Assembly (NCBI GenBank): GCA_024398785.1
Contig: JAKSIO010000005.1
Coordinates: 1 to 64,000 of the forward strand
DNA from: Bacteroidaceae bacterium
GTDB lineage: Bacteria; Bacteroidota; Bacteroidia; Bacteroidales; Bacteroidaceae
Length of the DNA stretch: 64,000 nt
Direction: 5' to 3'
Below are positions 3-42,653 of this stretch, one piece after another. The number at the start of each line of letters is the position of its first letter. Positions within the stretch are counted from its first letter, which is position 1. The translations under genes and the position numbers were made by a program. Below the pieces are notes generated by a model, which worked only from the letters and a program-made list of their open reading frames with translations, had not been told where the DNA came from and searched no databases.

Positions 3-323
3 AACATTGCTCGCTCGAAAGTACTGAAGCCCCTGCCACAACCAGCAAGCGACATATATCTCTCTGGATTCCGTCAACCGATGGAGCAGCGAGTGCAGAG
101 TCAAGCTCGCTTGAACTATGCCGAGTCGCGACAGAGGAAGAGCGAAGCTCAACGTATGCGCAGCGAGGTGTTCGACAATCTTCGTTGGCTGAGCATTGAC
201 CTCAACATCCCTTCTGAGGGCATTCACACAGTGAAGGTAGTGATGATTGATCCAGAGATTGTGGTAGAGAAACTCATCATCAATCCAGACAATGAACATC
301 CAACGTATCACGGTAAAGAATGA
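3..323 (+). CDS. C-terminal end of a GH115-type alpha-glucuronidase (partial, 5' end outside window)
   Basis: The reading frame is open from the left edge, so the gene begins outside the window; an internal ATG at 81 is not a convincing start. The visible ~106 residues end in a beta-rich tail with VKVVMIDPEIVVEKLIIN followed by PDNEHPTY, which resembles the C-terminal domain of GH115 xylan alpha-1,2-glucuronidases. That domain usually carries a hydrophobic strand, M(V/I)DP, then V(V/L)xK(I/L). The catalytic part is not visible. It sits 21 bp upstream of a GH43 enzyme on the same strand, which fits a xylan-degradation operon. Family assignment rests on the tail only; a GH2-like or other carbohydrate-active C-terminal domain is possible. 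Confidence 0.5.
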   Translation, partial: NIARSKVLKPLPQPASDIYLSGFRQPMEQRVQSQARLNYAESRQRKSEAQRMRSEVFDNLRWLSIDLNIPSEGIHTVKVVMIDPEIVVEKLIINPDNEHPTYHGKE

Positions 324-34378: not shown

Positions 34379-35517
34379 ATCTACAATAGTAGAAATTAAA
34401 TATGGCGTATAGCCTGTTTGAATCACTTCCGGCAGCGGCACAATCTACAATAGTAGAAATTAAATATGGCGTATAGCCATGATAATTATGCTAAGGGATA
34501 TACCTATCTACAATAGTAGAAATTAAATATGGCGTATAGCCAAATTCAAAAATACATTGTAATTTTGCCATCTACAATAGTAGAAATTAAATATGGCGTA
34601 TAGCCCATAGCCTTGCGTATAAAGGTCTCTGGATATCTACAATAGTAGAAATTAAATATGGCGTATAGCCGCCCTTACATTAGGTAAGGATGCAGAGAGA
34701 TCTACAATAGTAGAAATTAAATATGGCGTATAGCCACCTTACAAAGGAAGACATCAGAGAATGGGATCTACAATAGTAGAAATTAAATATGGCGTATAGC
34801 CGCCATCTTTGATAAAACTGTTTATTCCGTATCTACAATAGTAGAAATTAAATATGGCGTATAGCCGGGTATTATGTGTATGTATAACTATACTAATCTA
34901 CAATAGTAGAAATTAAATATGGCGTATAGCCTATCCATTATCCTTTGCACATCCCGGTTATCTACAATAGTAGAAATTAAATATGGCGTATAGCCCCGAT
35001 AATTTTCAGTCCTGCCGGCTGTGATCTACAATAGTAGAAATTAAATATGGCGTATAGCCGATGGCAAGACAATACGTATTTCTGACCATCATCTACAATA
35101 GTAGAAATTAAATATGGCGTATAGCCAAATGGCGGCAGCGCAGATCTGGAAGCAATCTACAATAGTAGAAATTAAATATGGCGTATAGCCCAGGCAAAAG
35201 TGTAGTATAAAGGTCTTTTTATCTACAATAGTAGAAATTAAATATGGCGTATAGCCACATTCGCAGTCTGCAAGAGAGATAACTCATCTACAATAGTAGA
35301 AATTAAATATGGCGTATAGCCTCTAAAAAACAACAGTTGGAAAATGTTGCTATCTACAATAGTAGAAATTAAATATGGCGTATAGCCCTCCTTCGTGATT
35401 ATGCCGCTCTTGGCATATCTACAATAGTAGAAATTAAATATGGCGTATAGCCGTATCTAATACATTACAGGACGCTTATGAATCTACAATAGTAGAAATT
35501 AAATATGGCGTATAGCC
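34379..35517 (-). CRISPR. Type V-A CRISPR array, 18 identical 36-bp repeats, 17 spacers
   Basis: Repeats start at 34379, 34443, 34506, 34570, 34635, 34700, 34766, 34831, 34896, 34960, 35024, 35091, 35155, 35221, 35286, 35352, 35417 and 35482. All are 36 bp and identical. Spacers are 27-31 bp. Read on the minus strand the repeat begins GGCTATACGCC and ends AATTTCTACTATTGTAGAT, the Cas12a handle with stem UCUAC/GUAGA and loop UAUU, so crRNAs are transcribed leftward. The leader is at 35518-35706 and the newest spacer should be 35453-35481. Even the leader-distal repeat is intact, which is unusual. No spacer was seen to match the window, and protospacers cannot be identified without a search. 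Confidence 0.98.
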
Positions 35518-35706: not shown

Positions 35707-35979
35707 TTAAAAGTAAACAACATCAACATCACGATGAATTGCATTTCCATATTTCTTTAGTTTGACGCTAGCAACGTCAAAAATAATGACACTATCAGCT
35801 CCACTAAATTTTTTGGAAAACATGTCTTCAATTGCAATCAGCATATTGTCAATGACACGATTTGTGTTGTTAACCTCATATACAGAAAACTGTAAGCGTA
35901 TGGCACCGTATTTTGCAAGCATTTTGGAAAACTTTGTTCTCAATTTGTCATCTTTTATGTCATAACTAATTACTAGCAT
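35707..35979 (-). CDS. cas2: CRISPR adaptation nuclease Cas2
   Basis: A 90-aa ferredoxin-fold protein, LVISYDIKDDKLRTKFSKML at the N-terminus (with the conserved Asp of YDI) and RLQFSVYEVNNT in the middle, the typical Cas2 signature. It dimerises and bridges two Cas1 dimers during spacer integration. Its ATG lies 1 bp after the cas1 stop, and it is the last gene before the leader. Confidence 0.96.
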   Translation of the reverse strand: MLVISYDIKDDKLRTKFSKMLAKYGAIRLQFSVYEVNNTNRVIDNMLIAIEDMFSKKFSGADSVIIFDVASVKLKKYGNAIHRDVDVVYF

Positions 35980-35980
35980 T

Positions 35981-36961
35981 TCAAATATTAAATATAGGAT
36001 AATGTGTTACGGATTGTTTTCCCATAAAGCAACGGTAATAGGATTGAATATACTTAAAGGTGTCAGCCTTATATGGTATTAATGCGTCGAAAAATAACTT
36101 ACAATAATCTCCATTTTTTTCATGTTTTAAATGATATTCTCCTTTCTGTACATGAAAATCGTTAAATGATATTTGTTTTCTATTCCAAGCAGTTCTGATA
36201 GTTTTATCGATTATTGGACGGAATGGTTCCATAAGATCACAGACCAATGATTTTCGTTTATACCACATTCTATGAAAAATACCAACATATAGATCAAAAC
36301 CAAACATTCTAATGAAACATTCTATATAATTAAATAACATTGTATATCCAATATCCAATGTGGAATTTAATGCATCACATTTTGTTCTAGGACGTCGTTG
36401 ATGCCATTCATGTTCTTGATAATATGCCTTAAAATACTGTTTTGCGGCGAATCCTTCGATACCCATAAGGGTATTGTAATCAAATATTGAAGGTATTGTA
36501 CTCAAACACCTAGACAATTCGATTTGCGATTGTATGGTTATGTCATCTTTTTTTCTAGTAGCATTTAATACCTTTAGTTGATTCTGGATTTTATTTGTTA
36601 CTATTACTTTAGCAATAGATATGTCATCATTAGCAAATTCATATTGCCTTTTACGTAAAAGATAATTAGCTTCTGCAGAATTAGACAAATAGAAAACTGG
36701 CCGGAATGATGGTTTCATAACTATCAACGCAACTCCAAATTTTTGACATTTTTCTATCAAAGGCGTAGTAATGCGTATGTGTCCTACTATAAAAAGGGCG
36801 AGTATTTTTTGAAATGGTAGCTTGGTCAATATTTTGCTTTCTTTACCATCATCAAGTTGTTCTTCCAATAATAATTCTCCATTACTTACTCTTAAGTCCC
36901 GGTCATGGAGACAATTAATGACAAAGACAGTACGATATTCAATATCTTTAGATGTAAACAT
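35981..36961 (-). CDS. cas1: CRISPR integrase Cas1
   Basis: 326 aa from the ATG at 36961 (MFTSKDIEYRT). The frame continues upstream to 37051, but that part overlaps cas4. The helical C-terminal domain has the three metal ligands of Cas1: Glu169 in GIEGFAAKQYF, His230 in GIFHRMW and Glu245 in DLMEPFRP. It integrates prespacers with Cas2. It overlaps the end of cas4 by 14 bp, so the two are translationally coupled. Confidence 0.96.
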   Translation of the reverse strand: MFTSKDIEYRTVFVINCLHDRDLRVSNGELLLEEQLDDGKESKILTKLPFQKILALFIVGHIRITTPLIEKCQKFGVALIVMKPSFRPVFYLSNSAEANYLLRKRQYEFANDDISIAKVIVTNKIQNQLKVLNATRKKDDITIQSQIELSRCLSTIPSIFDYNTLMGIEGFAAKQYFKAYYQEHEWHQRRPRTKCDALNSTLDIGYTMLFNYIECFIRMFGFDLYVGIFHRMWYKRKSLVCDLMEPFRPIIDKTIRTAWNRKQISFNDFHVQKGEYHLKHEKNGDYCKLFFDALIPYKADTFKYIQSYYRCFMGKQSVTHYPIFNI

Positions 36962-37517
36962 TGTCTTTATTTGTTTTATCGCATAAATTACAATATATGC
37001 AGTGATTACATTTGTTGATATTAATTGAAAATGGGGTGTTCCCAGGGTCAAAAGACCGAAATTCTTGTAAAAATGATTTAAATAAATCTATATCGGCTTT
37101 TGAAGGTATCGGAACAGGAATAGATTTATTCCTGGAAGTTTCATAAAATTCTAATGCTTTAACTTCGTATCCCATCTCGTTAAGACATAACATCTGTGCC
37201 CATAATTGGTATACCTGTCCTTGAAATATATGTTTAAGCTGAAATTTCCGTTCTATTAATTTTTGTTCGTTACGCTTATAAATATCTATCTTTCCCATCA
37301 ATCCATATTCATCAGAGTAGACTGACATAGATATAATGTCATCAGCACGATTACTGGCCTTTTTCCGATCTATGGTTTCATGCGCAATTTTGCCTTGAGT
37401 CTGTGGCGCTGCGTGAAAAACCATTTCATCCGTTTCCATATACACATTATGCAGGTATATGGAATACGGACAAAATATAAAATCGTTTAAAGTAGATATA
37501 GGAATATAATCATTCAT
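36948..37517 (-). CDS. cas4: CRISPR-associated exonuclease Cas4
   Basis: A 189-aa RecB-type nuclease. Cys16 (FIFCPYS) and the C-terminal cluster Cys170, Cys173, Cys176 and Cys179 form the [4Fe-4S] site. The nuclease core shows His46 (GKIAHE), Asp78 (GKIDIY) and Glu89/Lys91 (LIERKFQ), with QVYQLWAQ as the final motif. In type V-A systems Cas4 trims prespacers and helps choose those next to a PAM. It overlaps cas12a by 8 bp and cas1 by 14 bp. Confidence 0.95.
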   Translation of the reverse strand: MNDYIPISTLNDFIFCPYSIYLHNVYMETDEMVFHAAPQTQGKIAHETIDRKKASNRADDIISMSVYSDEYGLMGKIDIYKRNEQKLIERKFQLKHIFQGQVYQLWAQMLCLNEMGYEVKALEFYETSRNKSIPVPIPSKADIDLFKSFLQEFRSFDPGNTPFSININKCNHCIYCNLCDKTNKDNVYI

Positions 37518-40500
37518 TTAAATATTGTTTCTGCTGTGCAAAATTTAACCACTCCTTATTACTGATGGATAAATTTAATTTTTCTCCAACAGGTGTGGAT
37601 TGTATTTGGTTAATAACCCAAAGTCCTTTCCTTGCAATATTGTATGCACCATTTGCATCGGCATCTTTTGGCAATGAATCTGCACAATTTCTGCTGTCGT
37701 AGAATATGCCATTGGAGTTTGCAACAGGAGATAGTAGATAGTCAGTTTCAGTGCCGGATATGCTATTCCTCATCTGAACGAGCAATTTCATCAACTGCAT
37801 AAGTTGTTCTAAATATTTCTTGTCAGTCAGTCCGCATATTTCATTTTTAAGATTCGATGAAATGTCAATACCTGCATCATTAAACAGATTCTTATATGCT
37901 TCGGTCAGCTGAATCTCCTCATTGTCCCATTTGTTGAGTTTTGACGGATTCCTGAATGTTCTTACTCTAGTACCATAACTGCATAAAATCCATTTTGTTT
38001 GGGTTCCTTGAGCTTTTTCTGTAAACTTTTCATAATCAAATGCAAACTCAAACCAGTCTTTCTCTGAATTATATCTTATGCTATCAAATTTAGAAAAGAA
38101 ACAACGTGCTTTATCTACATTTTCATATGTTGTGTCAAATAGGTTCACAAATCCAGTGACAGGGTCTATTTTACTGGTGTTCCATGCAGGAATGTAGAAT
38201 AAACAACCACTTTGTTTACCTAATTTCTGAAAACTATCAAATTTACTTGTAAGTTGCAACGCGTTATAAATACCACCTAACTCATTCGTTGATTTTGTTT
38301 TGTCTACATAATAATTAAGTTTATCAATGAGCATCTTCTCAAACTTTTCGTACACCTGTCTTTCTATTTTTTGACGTCCACGCATAAAGCCCATATTCAA
38401 ATCTTCCAATACAACAATAGCTTTGTATTCTACCATCATTTTTGCGATAATGTGTATTACTTGTCCAAGATAACCTTCTTTTATTTCCTTTATATTTTCT
38501 ATTTTCTGCCAGTTCCTACGTGCTTCAATTCTGTCTCCTTCTCGTGCTGTCAGCAGTTCCTTGTAGTTCGTCTTATAAGTGTTCCCATTATATTCATTGA
38601 TAATCTCATTTAGTGTCATTTGTTTTACAATGTTTCCGTTTAGGTCAATCAATGATAAGTATAGTAAATGCCTTTCACCGCGGTCAATACCTATGATGTG
38701 CTCAATACCTTTGTTGCGAATTACCTCTTGAACAATACTATTGATGTTATCATTACCTGTCGCCTTAAAATTGATTGTAATAGGAACATGGAACTGAAAC
38801 ATGTCAGCAGTATAACGCTTGTTTTTTATAATGTCATAGCAGAAAGTGCTATTCTTTTTTGAATTCTGAATATTCTTATTGGCGATAGGTTGGTTGGCTC
38901 TGTGAATAGTGGTTTTATCCATGTCTAGGCTTTTCTTTCTGTAGAAGATTTCTGCCTGCCCATTTAATTTGTATACAACATTGGCCAGATTATGTTCATC
39001 AAACAGCATGTTCCAATATAGTGTATGAAGGTTTGGTGTACCTTTGCTAAAATCTGAAAAGTCTTTATTCCATATTTGGAATAGATATAATTTCCCTTCA
39101 TTCACCAAATGCATTATGAAGTTTTTTGATACTTTTCGGAATCCTAGCATATACCCTTGTTGTTCAACTTCTCGATAAAAACCACTAATGTCTTCATATG
39201 TTTCAGTAGGTGAAAATGTAAATGAAAATTTGCTCCAGTCTTCATGTTTTGATATGGATTTTTTGAAAAAATCTATTAAATGCTGGCAATCGGATAAAAC
39301 AAAATTTTTCCCTTTTTTATGTGTTCCTTTTTCATATGCTGAAATGACTTCTTGTGATGGAGCAAATTCGTCTCTACGCGATTGTGAAAAAAACACTTTG
39401 GGTAGCATCTTATTTGCTCCAGGTAATAGTTTGTAGTCAATTTTATCAAAACATTCACCAGTAGACGGCAGACAATTGCAATCAAAGGCATGGTTAGCAG
39501 TCTTGTTCATTATTGCAAGATAGTACAGACCATTCTGTCTCAAAAGAACTGCAGTACAGTCAGGTTCTTTATTGACATCCCAGCCGCTCAAAAGTTGTGC
39601 GTTTTCAAAGTTAAGTTTGATCTTTTCTGTACTATATGGCTTGCGCGTCAACCAATTGCGAACTTTATTATATAAAGGTGTGATAATATCCAACTCATTC
39701 CATATTGCTGTAATTTGTGAACTGAAGTCCAAGTCTTTGTCAGCCTCATCACCATTACCAAGTAGTGGCCTGATAAAATGTTGTAGGGTCTTGAATGCAT
39801 CAAGAAGGTCTTTGATTATTTTGATATTATTTTCAGACTGATTAATATTGGGATGTTTCCCTTGTAAAACATCGGTTGCCGCAATATATGACATTTCGAC
39901 TTGTTTGAATAAATCAATATGTTGTTCGTTATTGTGGTTATATGCACCTAAACATGAGAAATATTCTTGTATTGTTGTAGTATGGTCGTCTTGGCAAGGC
40001 TGTGGTAATGAGTTTAGATAAGAAATGCTGAAACTTTTCGCTGTTTTGAATAATCTGTTGATACGATCATTGAATAATTCCGGATTCTCCTTTTCTTTTT
40101 TGGACGGAGTAATATCACATTTTATTTCATTCTTAATTCCTTTTGAGAAGACGTCGTATTGTCCGAACATTTGTTGGGAAATATCTGAAAGACCCATATC
40201 ATTGGTGAGATAAATCCTATTGAGATCATATTTATCCAAGCGTAAAAGCAACGAGCGTAAACTATCATTACCATTTCCAATTATTACATCATAAAGTTGT
40301 TTGTATGTAGTTTGTATAGCACTACACATTTGACTATCAGAAGTGAATTCCTCGGGAAGCCATGATATTGCAACGCGATCACTTAATATCATTTTGTATA
40401 ATGGTTTAAGTCTTGGCAATCGTTTTGAACGATCTTTTTGTTGTTGATTGTATAAATTGACATATTCGTTGATTCCTTGTATCTTAGTTCCATCCTCTTC

Positions 40501-41262
40501 GGAACGTCCACCAATTATGTAATTATAGACTTCTATTTGTTCTTGCGTTAGAACATTGTTGAAGTATGAAAGTTGGAACATTTCGGTAATATGTTCAACG
40601 TTAAGATATTCACAGAATGCAGCCTCAATATCTGCAAAATGGGTGTTGATTGCTTCGCATATATTCTTAAATGATTTTATATTGTCAATAAAAATTGGCA
40701 AATTCTCATGAATTAGTCGATATGCTATAGCTGTCGATTTCGGCTCATCTGAATACATATTTTTGCGGTTTGCATGGAATCCTGTAAAATATGTCGTGAA
40801 CTTGCTGAAATTTTCTACTATTTGTTTGTCATCGTTGTTGGTTACAAAGTTTGGTAGGTGTTGTTGAATCAGTTCCTTTTTGAAAAGGTCTCCGTATGAT
40901 CTTCCGTTAGTAAAAGCATTAACGATTTGTTTACGTAAGTTTTCTTTGACTTTTTCTAATTCAGCCTCTTCAAGCACATTCCTTTTGCTTATATTAGTAA
41001 GTGTGACGTAATCTTCCAAAGAATTGTTATTGCCATCAGATGCTAACTTTAACTTGAAATTATATAGACACATCTTAATGAATTCTTTATGATATGTGTC
41101 AATGATGTCTTTGACTTTTTCATACTCTATTGCTCTCTGTTCGTCTTGAGCAATCAGGCCTTTCTTCTCAATGTTTTCGGCCGTTTTGCCTATTGGCCTT
41201 AATTCAAATCGTAGAGTTTTACTAATGGAATATAATCCAGTTAAATCATTAAATGTTTTCAT
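37510..41262 (-). CDS. cas12a: Type V-A CRISPR effector nuclease Cas12a (Cpf1)
   Basis: A 1250-aa effector of normal length. RuvC residues are Asp860 (GIDRGER), Glu953 (VVLEDLNMGF) and Asp1202 (DADANGAYNIA); Arg1165 (QMRNS) corresponds to the Nuc-domain Arg of known Cas12a. The crRNA-processing site has His787, Lys796 (HRANQPIANK) and Lys813 (DIIKNKR) at the spacing seen in FnCas12a. PAM-contact lysines are conserved as Lys565 (GWDVNKE) and Lys618 (PGANKMLPKVFF), which predicts a TTTV-type PAM. It should process its own pre-crRNA and cut target DNA with staggered ends. It starts 7 bp after xre/immA and overlaps cas4, so it lies within one operon. The gene is visibly AT-rich compared with flanking core genes. 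Confidence 0.98.
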   Translation of the reverse strand: MKTFNDLTGLYSISKTLRFELRPIGKTAENIEKKGLIAQDEQRAIEYEKVKDIIDTYHKEFIKMCLYNFKLKLASDGNNNSLEDYVTLTNISKRNVLEEAELEKVKENLRKQIVNAFTNGRSYGDLFKKELIQQHLPNFVTNNDDKQIVENFSKFTTYFTGFHANRKNMYSDEPKSTAIAYRLIHENLPIFIDNIKSFKNICEAINTHFADIEAAFCEYLNVEHITEMFQLSYFNNVLTQEQIEVYNYIIGGRSEEDGTKIQGINEYVNLYNQQQKDRSKRLPRLKPLYKMILSDRVAISWLPEEFTSDSQMCSAIQTTYKQLYDVIIGNGNDSLRSLLLRLDKYDLNRIYLTNDMGLSDISQQMFGQYDVFSKGIKNEIKCDITPSKKEKENPELFNDRINRLFKTAKSFSISYLNSLPQPCQDDHTTTIQEYFSCLGAYNHNNEQHIDLFKQVEMSYIAATDVLQGKHPNINQSENNIKIIKDLLDAFKTLQHFIRPLLGNGDEADKDLDFSSQITAIWNELDIITPLYNKVRNWLTRKPYSTEKIKLNFENAQLLSGWDVNKEPDCTAVLLRQNGLYYLAIMNKTANHAFDCNCLPSTGECFDKIDYKLLPGANKMLPKVFFSQSRRDEFAPSQEVISAYEKGTHKKGKNFVLSDCQHLIDFFKKSISKHEDWSKFSFTFSPTETYEDISGFYREVEQQGYMLGFRKVSKNFIMHLVNEGKLYLFQIWNKDFSDFSKGTPNLHTLYWNMLFDEHNLANVVYKLNGQAEIFYRKKSLDMDKTTIHRANQPIANKNIQNSKKNSTFCYDIIKNKRYTADMFQFHVPITINFKATGNDNINSIVQEVIRNKGIEHIIGIDRGERHLLYLSLIDLNGNIVKQMTLNEIINEYNGNTYKTNYKELLTAREGDRIEARRNWQKIENIKEIKEGYLGQVIHIIAKMMVEYKAIVVLEDLNMGFMRGRQKIERQVYEKFEKMLIDKLNYYVDKTKSTNELGGIYNALQLTSKFDSFQKLGKQSGCLFYIPAWNTSKIDPVTGFVNLFDTTYENVDKARCFFSKFDSIRYNSEKDWFEFAFDYEKFTEKAQGTQTKWILCSYGTRVRTFRNPSKLNKWDNEEIQLTEAYKNLFNDAGIDISSNLKNEICGLTDKKYLEQLMQLMKLLVQMRNSISGTETDYLLSPVANSNGIFYDSRNCADSLPKDADANGAYNIARKGLWVINQIQSTPVGEKLNLSISNKEWLNFAQQKQYLNE

Positions 41263-41269
41263 ATTTTTA

Positions 41270-42310
41270 TTATTTAATATTCAGGCGTAATTGGAGAAGG
41301 GAACGGGTGTCGGCAGTTTCTTTTATTATGTAGTCGCCCAAACCTTGTTCCAAAGGATTAGGTTTAATAAGTTCTTCAAAATATCTGTGATAAGTGGCAT
41401 TGTCTATTACACGCAGAGTCTGCAAACGATGAATAGTTGCAGCAATACTGATGCCGTATGTTTGACGGACACTTATCAGTTCATCAACATGGACACTGGA
41501 ACGGGACTGGCCGAAACGTCTGAATACACTCTGTTGCGGCAATAACATTGCACAGGCAAAACATTCGCACAAGCGTTCAGTGTCAGGTAATTTCAATGTG
41601 GCATTGTACGGCAGTTCCGGCAGGGATTGCAGATAAACGTCAAATTCATTTTCAGTCAGTTGTTTGAATTTCAATATCAAATGTGCAAACTCATGCAACG
41701 CTGTAAAACGTTTGCGTTCCGATGTCGAATTACAGCAGTTGTTGATTATTATTACAGGAACTGTTTTGTTTACATATGTTGACAGACCTATAATATCTGT
41801 ATTTTCAATATTGAGTTCTATTACATGAATGCCATAGTTATGCAGGATTTCGTATACTGAAAAAATTGGCTGAATACCTATACACCACTTTTTGCGTAAT
41901 TTCTCAGCCGCCTGTTCTATATCAGGATAGTTACTGACCGTTGTTCCTTTAAGCGGATTCTTAAAAGGGATCTGGTCTGGAAAATTGGCGTTGAGTTCCA
42001 TATACTCCTGAACAGATGCCTTGACTTGAGTTTCTATTTCTTGGCGTTTCTTGTCCGGCGTGCCACTCTTGAAACGGAATTCCAGTTCTCCCATATCCAT
42101 GTCTTCCTGATAGAAATAGTCCAGTGGAACCATACATGCATCTGCAATTGCAGATAATATCTGTTCAGATGGTTTGATCAGGCCTCGTTCTATTTTTGAT
42201 ATAGCCATTTTGCTTACAGAATGTCTTCCCATACGCAATACCAACTGATCCATTGTAAGGCACCTTATCAGTCTGGCGGTTTTGACTTTATTTGGATTGA
42301 ATATTTTCAT
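41270..42310 (-). CDS. XRE-family HTH regulator fused to an ImmA/IrrE metalloprotease, first gene of the Cas12a operon
   Basis: 346 aa. Residues about 8-66 form an XRE helix-turn-helix (TMDQLVLRMG, SVSKMAISKIERGLIKPS). A linker is followed by a COG2856 (ImmA/IrrE) zinc-peptidase domain with the HEFAH motif at residues 206-210 and a likely third ligand Glu245 in ERLCECFACAMLLP. In mobile elements ImmA-type proteases cleave a partner repressor to induce the element; in fused forms the protease may act on its own HTH or on a co-repressor. Its stop is 7 bp from the cas12a ATG, with no room for another promoter, so it and the cas genes share one transcript. Two palindromic operators overlap its promoter. 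It is best read as an autoregulator of the CRISPR operon, by inference. Confidence 0.9.
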   Translation of the reverse strand: MKIFNPNKVKTARLIRCLTMDQLVLRMGRHSVSKMAISKIERGLIKPSEQILSAIADACMVPLDYFYQEDMDMGELEFRFKSGTPDKKRQEIETQVKASVQEYMELNANFPDQIPFKNPLKGTTVSNYPDIEQAAEKLRKKWCIGIQPIFSVYEILHNYGIHVIELNIENTDIIGLSTYVNKTVPVIIINNCCNSTSERKRFTALHEFAHLILKFKQLTENEFDVYLQSLPELPYNATLKLPDTERLCECFACAMLLPQQSVFRRFGQSRSSVHVDELISVRQTYGISIAATIHRLQTLRVIDNATYHRYFEELIKPNPLEQGLGDYIIKETADTRSLLQLRLNIK

Positions 42311-42328
42311 TATTTTTCTGCAGTTAGT

Positions 42329-42361
42329 TTACAAATGTAAGAATAATATTACATATTGTAA
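42329..42361 (-). promoter_or_regulatory. Tandem operators overlapping the promoter of the xre/immA-cas12a operon
   Basis: Two palindromes, TTACA-AA-TGTAA (42329-42340) and TTACA-TAT-TGTAA (42349-42361), have centres 20.5 bp apart (two helical turns) and lie 18 bp upstream of the ATG at 42310. On the minus strand TACATTTG (42339-42332) is a good -7 box and sits inside the first palindrome. The -33 element is weak (TTTAC at 42362-42358, or TTG at 42365-42363). Occupancy would block RNA polymerase, as for phage-type repressors. Confidence 0.7.
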
Positions 42362-42421
42362 ACAAGATCGCAAAAAAACAATAAAAATTTTCACCACCAC
42401 AACACGTGAGTATGTGCCATG

Positions 42422-42490: not shown

Positions 42491-42653
42491 GTATTTGGAT
42501 ATATGCGTTAGAAGACCCTCAGTACCCGTTCTGAGGTGAACGGGAGGGGCCCGGAAGTTAGAATTGCGGAGCAGGGCTAACTTTTGGGAGGGACGAGCAG
42601 TTAGTCAGCGAAGCGCTAACTGCGAGCGTCTGATAACGCATATATCCAAATAC
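42491..42653. repeat. 163-bp structured element with perfect 20-bp inverted ends
   Basis: GTATTTGGATATATGCGTTA (42491-42510) has its exact reverse complement at 42634-42653. Inside are a 7-bp hairpin CCCGTTC/GAACGGG (42525-42544) that competes with CCTCAG/CTGAGG (42517-42536), a 12-bp stem with two G-U pairs joining 42550-42561 and 42577-42588, and an 8-bp stem GCAGTTAG/CTAACTGC (42597-42623). The interior is GC-rich in AT-rich surroundings and has no open frame. It could be a MITE or REP-like element, a structured RNA, or an invertible segment. It sits 15 bp past the gnd stop. Confidence 0.75.

Follow-up and report, generated by a model that had tools for sequence, protein, structure and literature searches.

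The window, meaning the whole 64,000-nt stretch of DNA analysed, comes from a 2.07-Mb Bacteroidaceae draft genome in 41 contigs. On its minus strand, a gene coding for an XRE-ImmA/IrrE fusion protein is followed by cas12a, cas4, cas1 and cas2, and then by a CRISPR array (Table 1). Gene calls and family matches bore out a previous reading of the sequence alone, according to which a complete type V-A operon is led by the fusion gene: the Cas12a effector is present (TIGR04330), as are a PREFRAN-type Cas4-Cas1-Cas2 set and repeats of the Cas12a type. The stop codon of the fusion gene was indeed found 7 bp before the cas12a ATG (41262). The neighbour of the fusion gene on the upstream side is gnd. 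The listed TTG start of cas1 lies inside cas4, and the family match covers the protein from residue 36 onwards, so that the true start is probably downstream. Inspection of 37 genomes of the genus detected cas12a in the window genome alone; the operon is therefore probably a recent acquisition here.

Table 1. Features of the fusion-cas12a locus and of the fusion protein
Feature	Position	Strand	Comment
Operator, inverted repeat GTTTACA-N23-TGTAAAC	42327..42363		Spans the promoter; 0 expected by chance
-7 box TACATTTG	42332..42339	-	Bacteroidota consensus TAnnTTTG; overlapped by the inner operator arm
Two short palindromes of the sequence-only reading	42329..42361		Outer halves form part of the conserved operator; inner halves unconserved in relatives
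XRE-ImmA/IrrE fusion gene	41270..42310	-	346-aa ORF
cas12a	37510..41262	-	1250 aa; TIGR04330, 1517 bits
cas4, PREFRAN type	36948..37517	-	8-bp overlap with the cas12a end; TIGR04328/TIGR04329 among the cas4/cas1 family matches
cas1, PREFRAN type	35981..37051	-	Listed TTG start overlaps cas4; family match from residue 36
cas2	35707..35979	-	Family match
CRISPR array	34379..35517	-	18 identical 36-nt repeats; minus-strand reading ...AATTTCTACTATTGTAGAT, Cas12a type
HTH	Residues ~6-70		346-aa fusion
Linker helix	Residues 86-108		Fusion
Metallopeptidase-like domain	Residues ~125-316		Fusion
C-terminal motif	N318/E321/G323/G325		Fusion; conserved

A 163-bp MITE-like element or structured RNA with 30-nt inverted ends (90% complementary) was noticed at 42491-42653. 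The window genome contains a dozen near-full-length dispersed copies of it, of ~190 bp and 73-79% identical. No Rfam match was found in the window, this element included.

The fusion protein

Translation of the ORF confirmed a 346-aa chain that joins an XRE domain to a zinc-protease domain with HEFAH at residues 206-210. HTH_3 (PF01381) and Peptidase_M78 (PF06114) both scored above the Pfam cut-offs on this one chain, as expected for an XRE-COG2856 fusion. The zinc-peptidase residues H206, E207, H210 and E245 (HExxH plus the distal Glu) were invariant in 81 of 81 relatives, and the segment around E245 could be aligned with IrrE, an E..CN zinc-ligand segment being common to both. In the tree of relatives described below, C248 was conserved in 25 of the 27 proteins of the CRISPR-linked clade and in 53 of the 54 on the other side; CapP has a cysteine switch. 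Residues H294, N318, E321, G323 and G325 were invariant in the CRISPR-linked clade and not in the other. In an AlphaFold model of the fusion (pLDDT 92.8), the predicted peptidase part was structurally closest to CapP (7t5t; Z 11.5, 162 residues, 3.5 Å), while the HTH part resembled SinR, ImmR, DdrO and CapH. The spr1629 repressor/antitoxin family (NF052239) was considered and rejected, the fusion scoring 74 bits against a curated cut-off of 335.

The operator over the fusion gene promoter

The sequence-only reading had placed two palindromes over the promoter of the fusion gene. Both were found, TTACA-N2-TGTAA at 42329-42340 and TTACA-N3-TGTAA at 42349-42361, with their centres 20.5 bp apart (chance expectation in 64 kb, 0.08 and 0.14, respectively), and the -7 box does lie within one of them, at 42339-42332. 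The two palindromes contain the operator. Its description as tandem palindromes two turns apart did not hold, since relatives keep a single inverted repeat, mostly with a spacer of 22 or 23; the inner half-sites are particular to the window. Diverged relatives had either the same arms or coordinated two-sided variants (GGTTACA/TGTAACC, GTTGACA/TGTCAAC), and the spacer was mostly 22 or 23, Treponema and Fibrobacter included. Arms with at least 6/7 matches at one of these spacers were detected near XRE-ImmA starts in 43 loci. Four N23 sites lay away from such starts: two belong to a single locus, L108, in which the start had been placed too far upstream, and the remaining ones are displaced operator copies in L157 and L164.

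The inner arm was joined to a perfect TAnnTTTG in 25 of 28 CRISPR-clade copies, a count obtained with a scan that gave a bonus to TAnnTTTG boxes and hence chose the best sites accordingly. In three clade members (L102, L132 and L142) the operator was weak or unrecognised. On the minus strand of the window, no TAnnTTTG box other than TACATTTG was found from 42400 to cas12a. A genome-wide operator search allowing mismatches gave 221 matches versus 204 in the control, which is near background, and no regulon is therefore claimed. Perfect 6-bp operator arms occur in the window genome at the fusion promoter and at one other site.

Association with cas12a and with other CRISPR types

Genes coding for Cas12a were detected in 16 of 393 genomes of the order and in 25 of 399 genomes of the family. 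A check of other type V-A loci for an XRE-ImmA gene directly upstream of cas12a brought the total to ten loci from several Bacteroidaceae genera, with both genes on the same strand and gaps of 2-55 bp. Six of them (the window, G424, G535, G744, G545 and G681) came from the order and family genomes; the other four, from Xylanibacter caecicola, a rumen Prevotella, Phocaeicola and Bacteroides merdigallinarum, came from a scan of genome contigs that required an alignment as the query, as a single-sequence query of genome contigs gave no match. The six homologues compared in full were 31-51% identical to the window protein. The pairing of gene and operator, on whose conservation the sequence-only reading had made its proposal depend, therefore recurs in diverged loci, with the operator at a fixed spacing. 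In Xylanibacter muris (L099 / L022), cas12a is split across two frames in the assembly; the regulator and the operator are intact.

Most of the sampled Cas12a loci were devoid of an XRE-ImmA regulator, and most of these other loci lacked WYL or RhuM genes too. WYL/WCX regulators were found upstream of cas12a and on the same strand in L068, L075, L080 and L085, and a RhuM gene upstream of cas12a in L065. The fusion would therefore be one of several solutions. On a Cas12a tree, the XRE-ImmA label required seven changes, which suggests that the regulator has been repeatedly gained, lost or exchanged. The gap between the WYL gene and cas12a was 34-91 bp in three loci; in L085 it amounted to 676 bp and contained an HNH-like gene. 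RhuM genes (confirmed with Pfam in L065 and L090) or genes judged by eye to be BRO-N-like were observed in L065, L090, L096, L103 and L139, located inside the cas operon, next to the leader regulator, or in the interval separating that regulator from the cas genes.

When 81 relatives were placed in a tree (quick method, rooted at the midpoint), a 27-member CRISPR side was separated from a 54-member side (SH-aLRT 99). The 80 loci inspected were those nearest to the query by similarity, not a random sample; many derive from draft metagenome assemblies, and in L090, L104 and L110 the contig ends beside the gene. All CRISPR-linked copies fell in the 27-member clade: in addition to the ten type V-A loci, they head type II (cas9), I-C and I-B operons, assignments that rest on family searches and cas-gene searches. 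The regulator is thus shared across CRISPR types and is not specific to Cas12a. Cas genes were present in 20 of the 25 contig loci of the CRISPR side, versus none of the 55 on the other (Fisher test, 1.5e-14, taking related loci as independent and set up after the clade had been seen); the cas9 matches of L138, which is counted among the 20, are on the opposite strand. Repeat arrays fitting each CRISPR type were found near many clade loci. On the other side of the tree, 34 proteins precede a short PIN-like gene, as recognised by a sequence-motif rule, the Pfam support for PIN being weak. A search for independent replicate loci mostly met the same genomes again. The sole new full-length match, G485, lies outside the 80 loci and contains a full type I-C operon behind the regulator gene, the gene types being assigned from the sequence and from protein similarity to L141 judged by eye.

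The hosts of the clade are gut and rumen Bacteroidales, and the same operator nearly always lies over the regulator's own promoter. The regulators closest to that of the window, in L089 and L090, are 64% identical to it and keep the operator; no cas genes were detected there in the sequence searched, and the flanks are unlike those of the window. In L097 (10025-15780), the genes headed by a CRISPR-clade regulator code for a large helicase (ResIII, with a weak DdmD match) and for a 665-aa protein for which no Pfam match was found; this gene set is perhaps another defence system. Viral contigs contained only distant homologues (22-29% identical).

Proposed regulation of the cas operon

At the level of sequence, the comparison establishes how the operon is laid out, that the pairing is conserved, that a conserved operator overlies the promoter, that the active site is invariant and that the clade has moved among CRISPR types. 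The fusion is probably a dedicated regulator of CRISPR-cas operons that represses its own transcription and is released through its protease domain upon a damage or infection signal. The autorepression of the whole type V-A operon from one promoter, as initially proposed, is well supported by the recurrent pairing and by a fixed-spacing operator that straddles the promoter; operator geometry and operon layout make it the most likely function, and DNA binding and repression by the fusion can be proposed with strong confidence. The XRE domain would bind GTTTACA-N22/23-TGTAAAC. The end of the -7 box falls within one arm of this repeat, and the other arm is located ~30 bp further upstream, close to the -33 region. 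With both arms occupied, RNA polymerase would be blocked, and the regulator gene would be repressed together with every cas gene downstream. Upon a damage- or infection-related signal, the ImmA/IrrE domain would most likely cut either the fusion itself or the chain of a partner repressor, allowing cas12a-cas4-cas1-cas2 to be transcribed. This proteolytic step is proposed with moderate confidence on the basis of the invariant active site and the precedents of CapH+CapP, IrrE-DdrO and ImmA-ImmR (PMC13373217, PMC10904395 and PMC2701414). As for the signal, ssDNA might be suggested, weakly, by analogy: it activates CapP to cleave CapH (PMC13373217), and it also activates PprI (PMC10904395).

In the case of CapH+CapP, a defence operon is likewise led by an XRE repressor and an IrrE-like zinc protease, and the fusion matches both structurally; however, they are encoded by two genes rather than a single fused ORF, and their context is CBASS or Bub, not CRISPR. 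In IrrE/PprI-DdrO and ImmA-ImmR, an XRE repressor is eliminated by a protease that shares the motif and the zinc-ligand segment of the fusion, although two proteins are involved and they govern a radiation response or a conjugative element. For fusions of the XRE-COG2856 architecture, in association with PIN or RelE toxins, a LexA-like protease-repressor role was proposed by Makarova in 2009 (PMC2701414). The sister clade found here pairs with PIN-like genes as well, whereas the CRISPR clade is separate in the tree, and a link to cas operons is absent from the part of that account available. RmrA of RosmerTA, known from an anti-phage context (PMC10440598), is also an HTH plus ImmA protease-domain protein and was the best PADLOC match of the fusion (1.2e-36), which is nearer to RmrA than to CapP. 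RmrA is, however, paired with the toxin RmrT; an RmrT gene was looked for beside the fusion gene and was absent, its neighbours being cas12a and gnd. The CapW/BrxR WYL repressors, too, are leader regulators of defence operons, and WYL genes also precede some cas12a genes, but this protein family is unrelated to the fusion.

The fusion could instead be a purely homeostatic autorepressor that keeps Cas12a low against its cost or autoimmunity, with a protease used for its own turnover or on another protein and with no inducible release. This would fit the operator and the autoregulation, for which support is strongest. Even so, this explanation appears unlikely, because the separate-gene relatives cited above as precedents all remove the repressor by means of a protease.

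The ImmA-fold domain might also be a non-proteolytic ligand sensor, in which case a small molecule (e.g. an acyl-CoA) would alter DNA binding and the operon would follow metabolism, not damage. Residues 127-322 of the predicted structure also match M. tuberculosis 6d2s/6cyy (Z 10.2-10.4), an XRE plus IrrE-like regulator whose fold serves as a ligand sensor. This match is nearly as close as that to CapP and keeps the explanation alive. It is nevertheless rather improbable: the best structural match is a protease, and the invariance of the zinc-site motif in both clades is hard to explain without catalysis or zinc binding.

That the gene is a remnant of a RosmerTA or XRE-COG2856 toxin-antitoxin module, placed before cas12a by chance and with no role in expression, is very improbable despite the RmrA match and the PIN-linked sister clade, since there is no toxin gene beside it, it recurs before operons of four CRISPR types, in a clade that the tree sets apart from the PIN-linked one, the gaps are as short as 2 bp, and the window has no other promoter box before cas12a.

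Returning to a repressor released by proteolysis, the presence of the same operator and the same clade before four CRISPR types suggests that CRISPR immunity is turned on and off by a common switch. A wider version is offered tentatively, with its chances somewhat short of even: the clade may be a general, exchangeable CRISPR controller in Bacteroidales, with type V-A, II, I-C and I-B operons, adaptation genes included, silenced via one operator and opened by self-cleavage upon phage or DNA damage, so that they would be inducible, not constitutive. Several parts are already known, namely XRE-COG2856 fusions, their PIN partners and the protease-repressor idea (2009; PMC2701414), RmrA and CapH/CapP. 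In the literature searched, which mostly excluded subscription journals, no description was found of an XRE-ImmA gene heading cas12a or other cas operons, of a fusion clade dedicated to CRISPR, or of such a switch for Cas12a, and no paper dealt with Cas12a together with ImmA/IrrE.

The way in which cas operons become active upon infection is little understood, particularly in Bacteroidales. The conserved operator makes cas promoters under control of the fusion findable by sequence. If the proposed regulation is correct, a regulator-operator module common to four CRISPR types would constitute a single testable switch with mutable parts (the operator arms and HExxH), and the logic of CapH/CapP and CapW in innate defence operons would extend to adaptive immunity. 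It would also hint at why some of these CRISPR systems might stay silent in laboratory culture.
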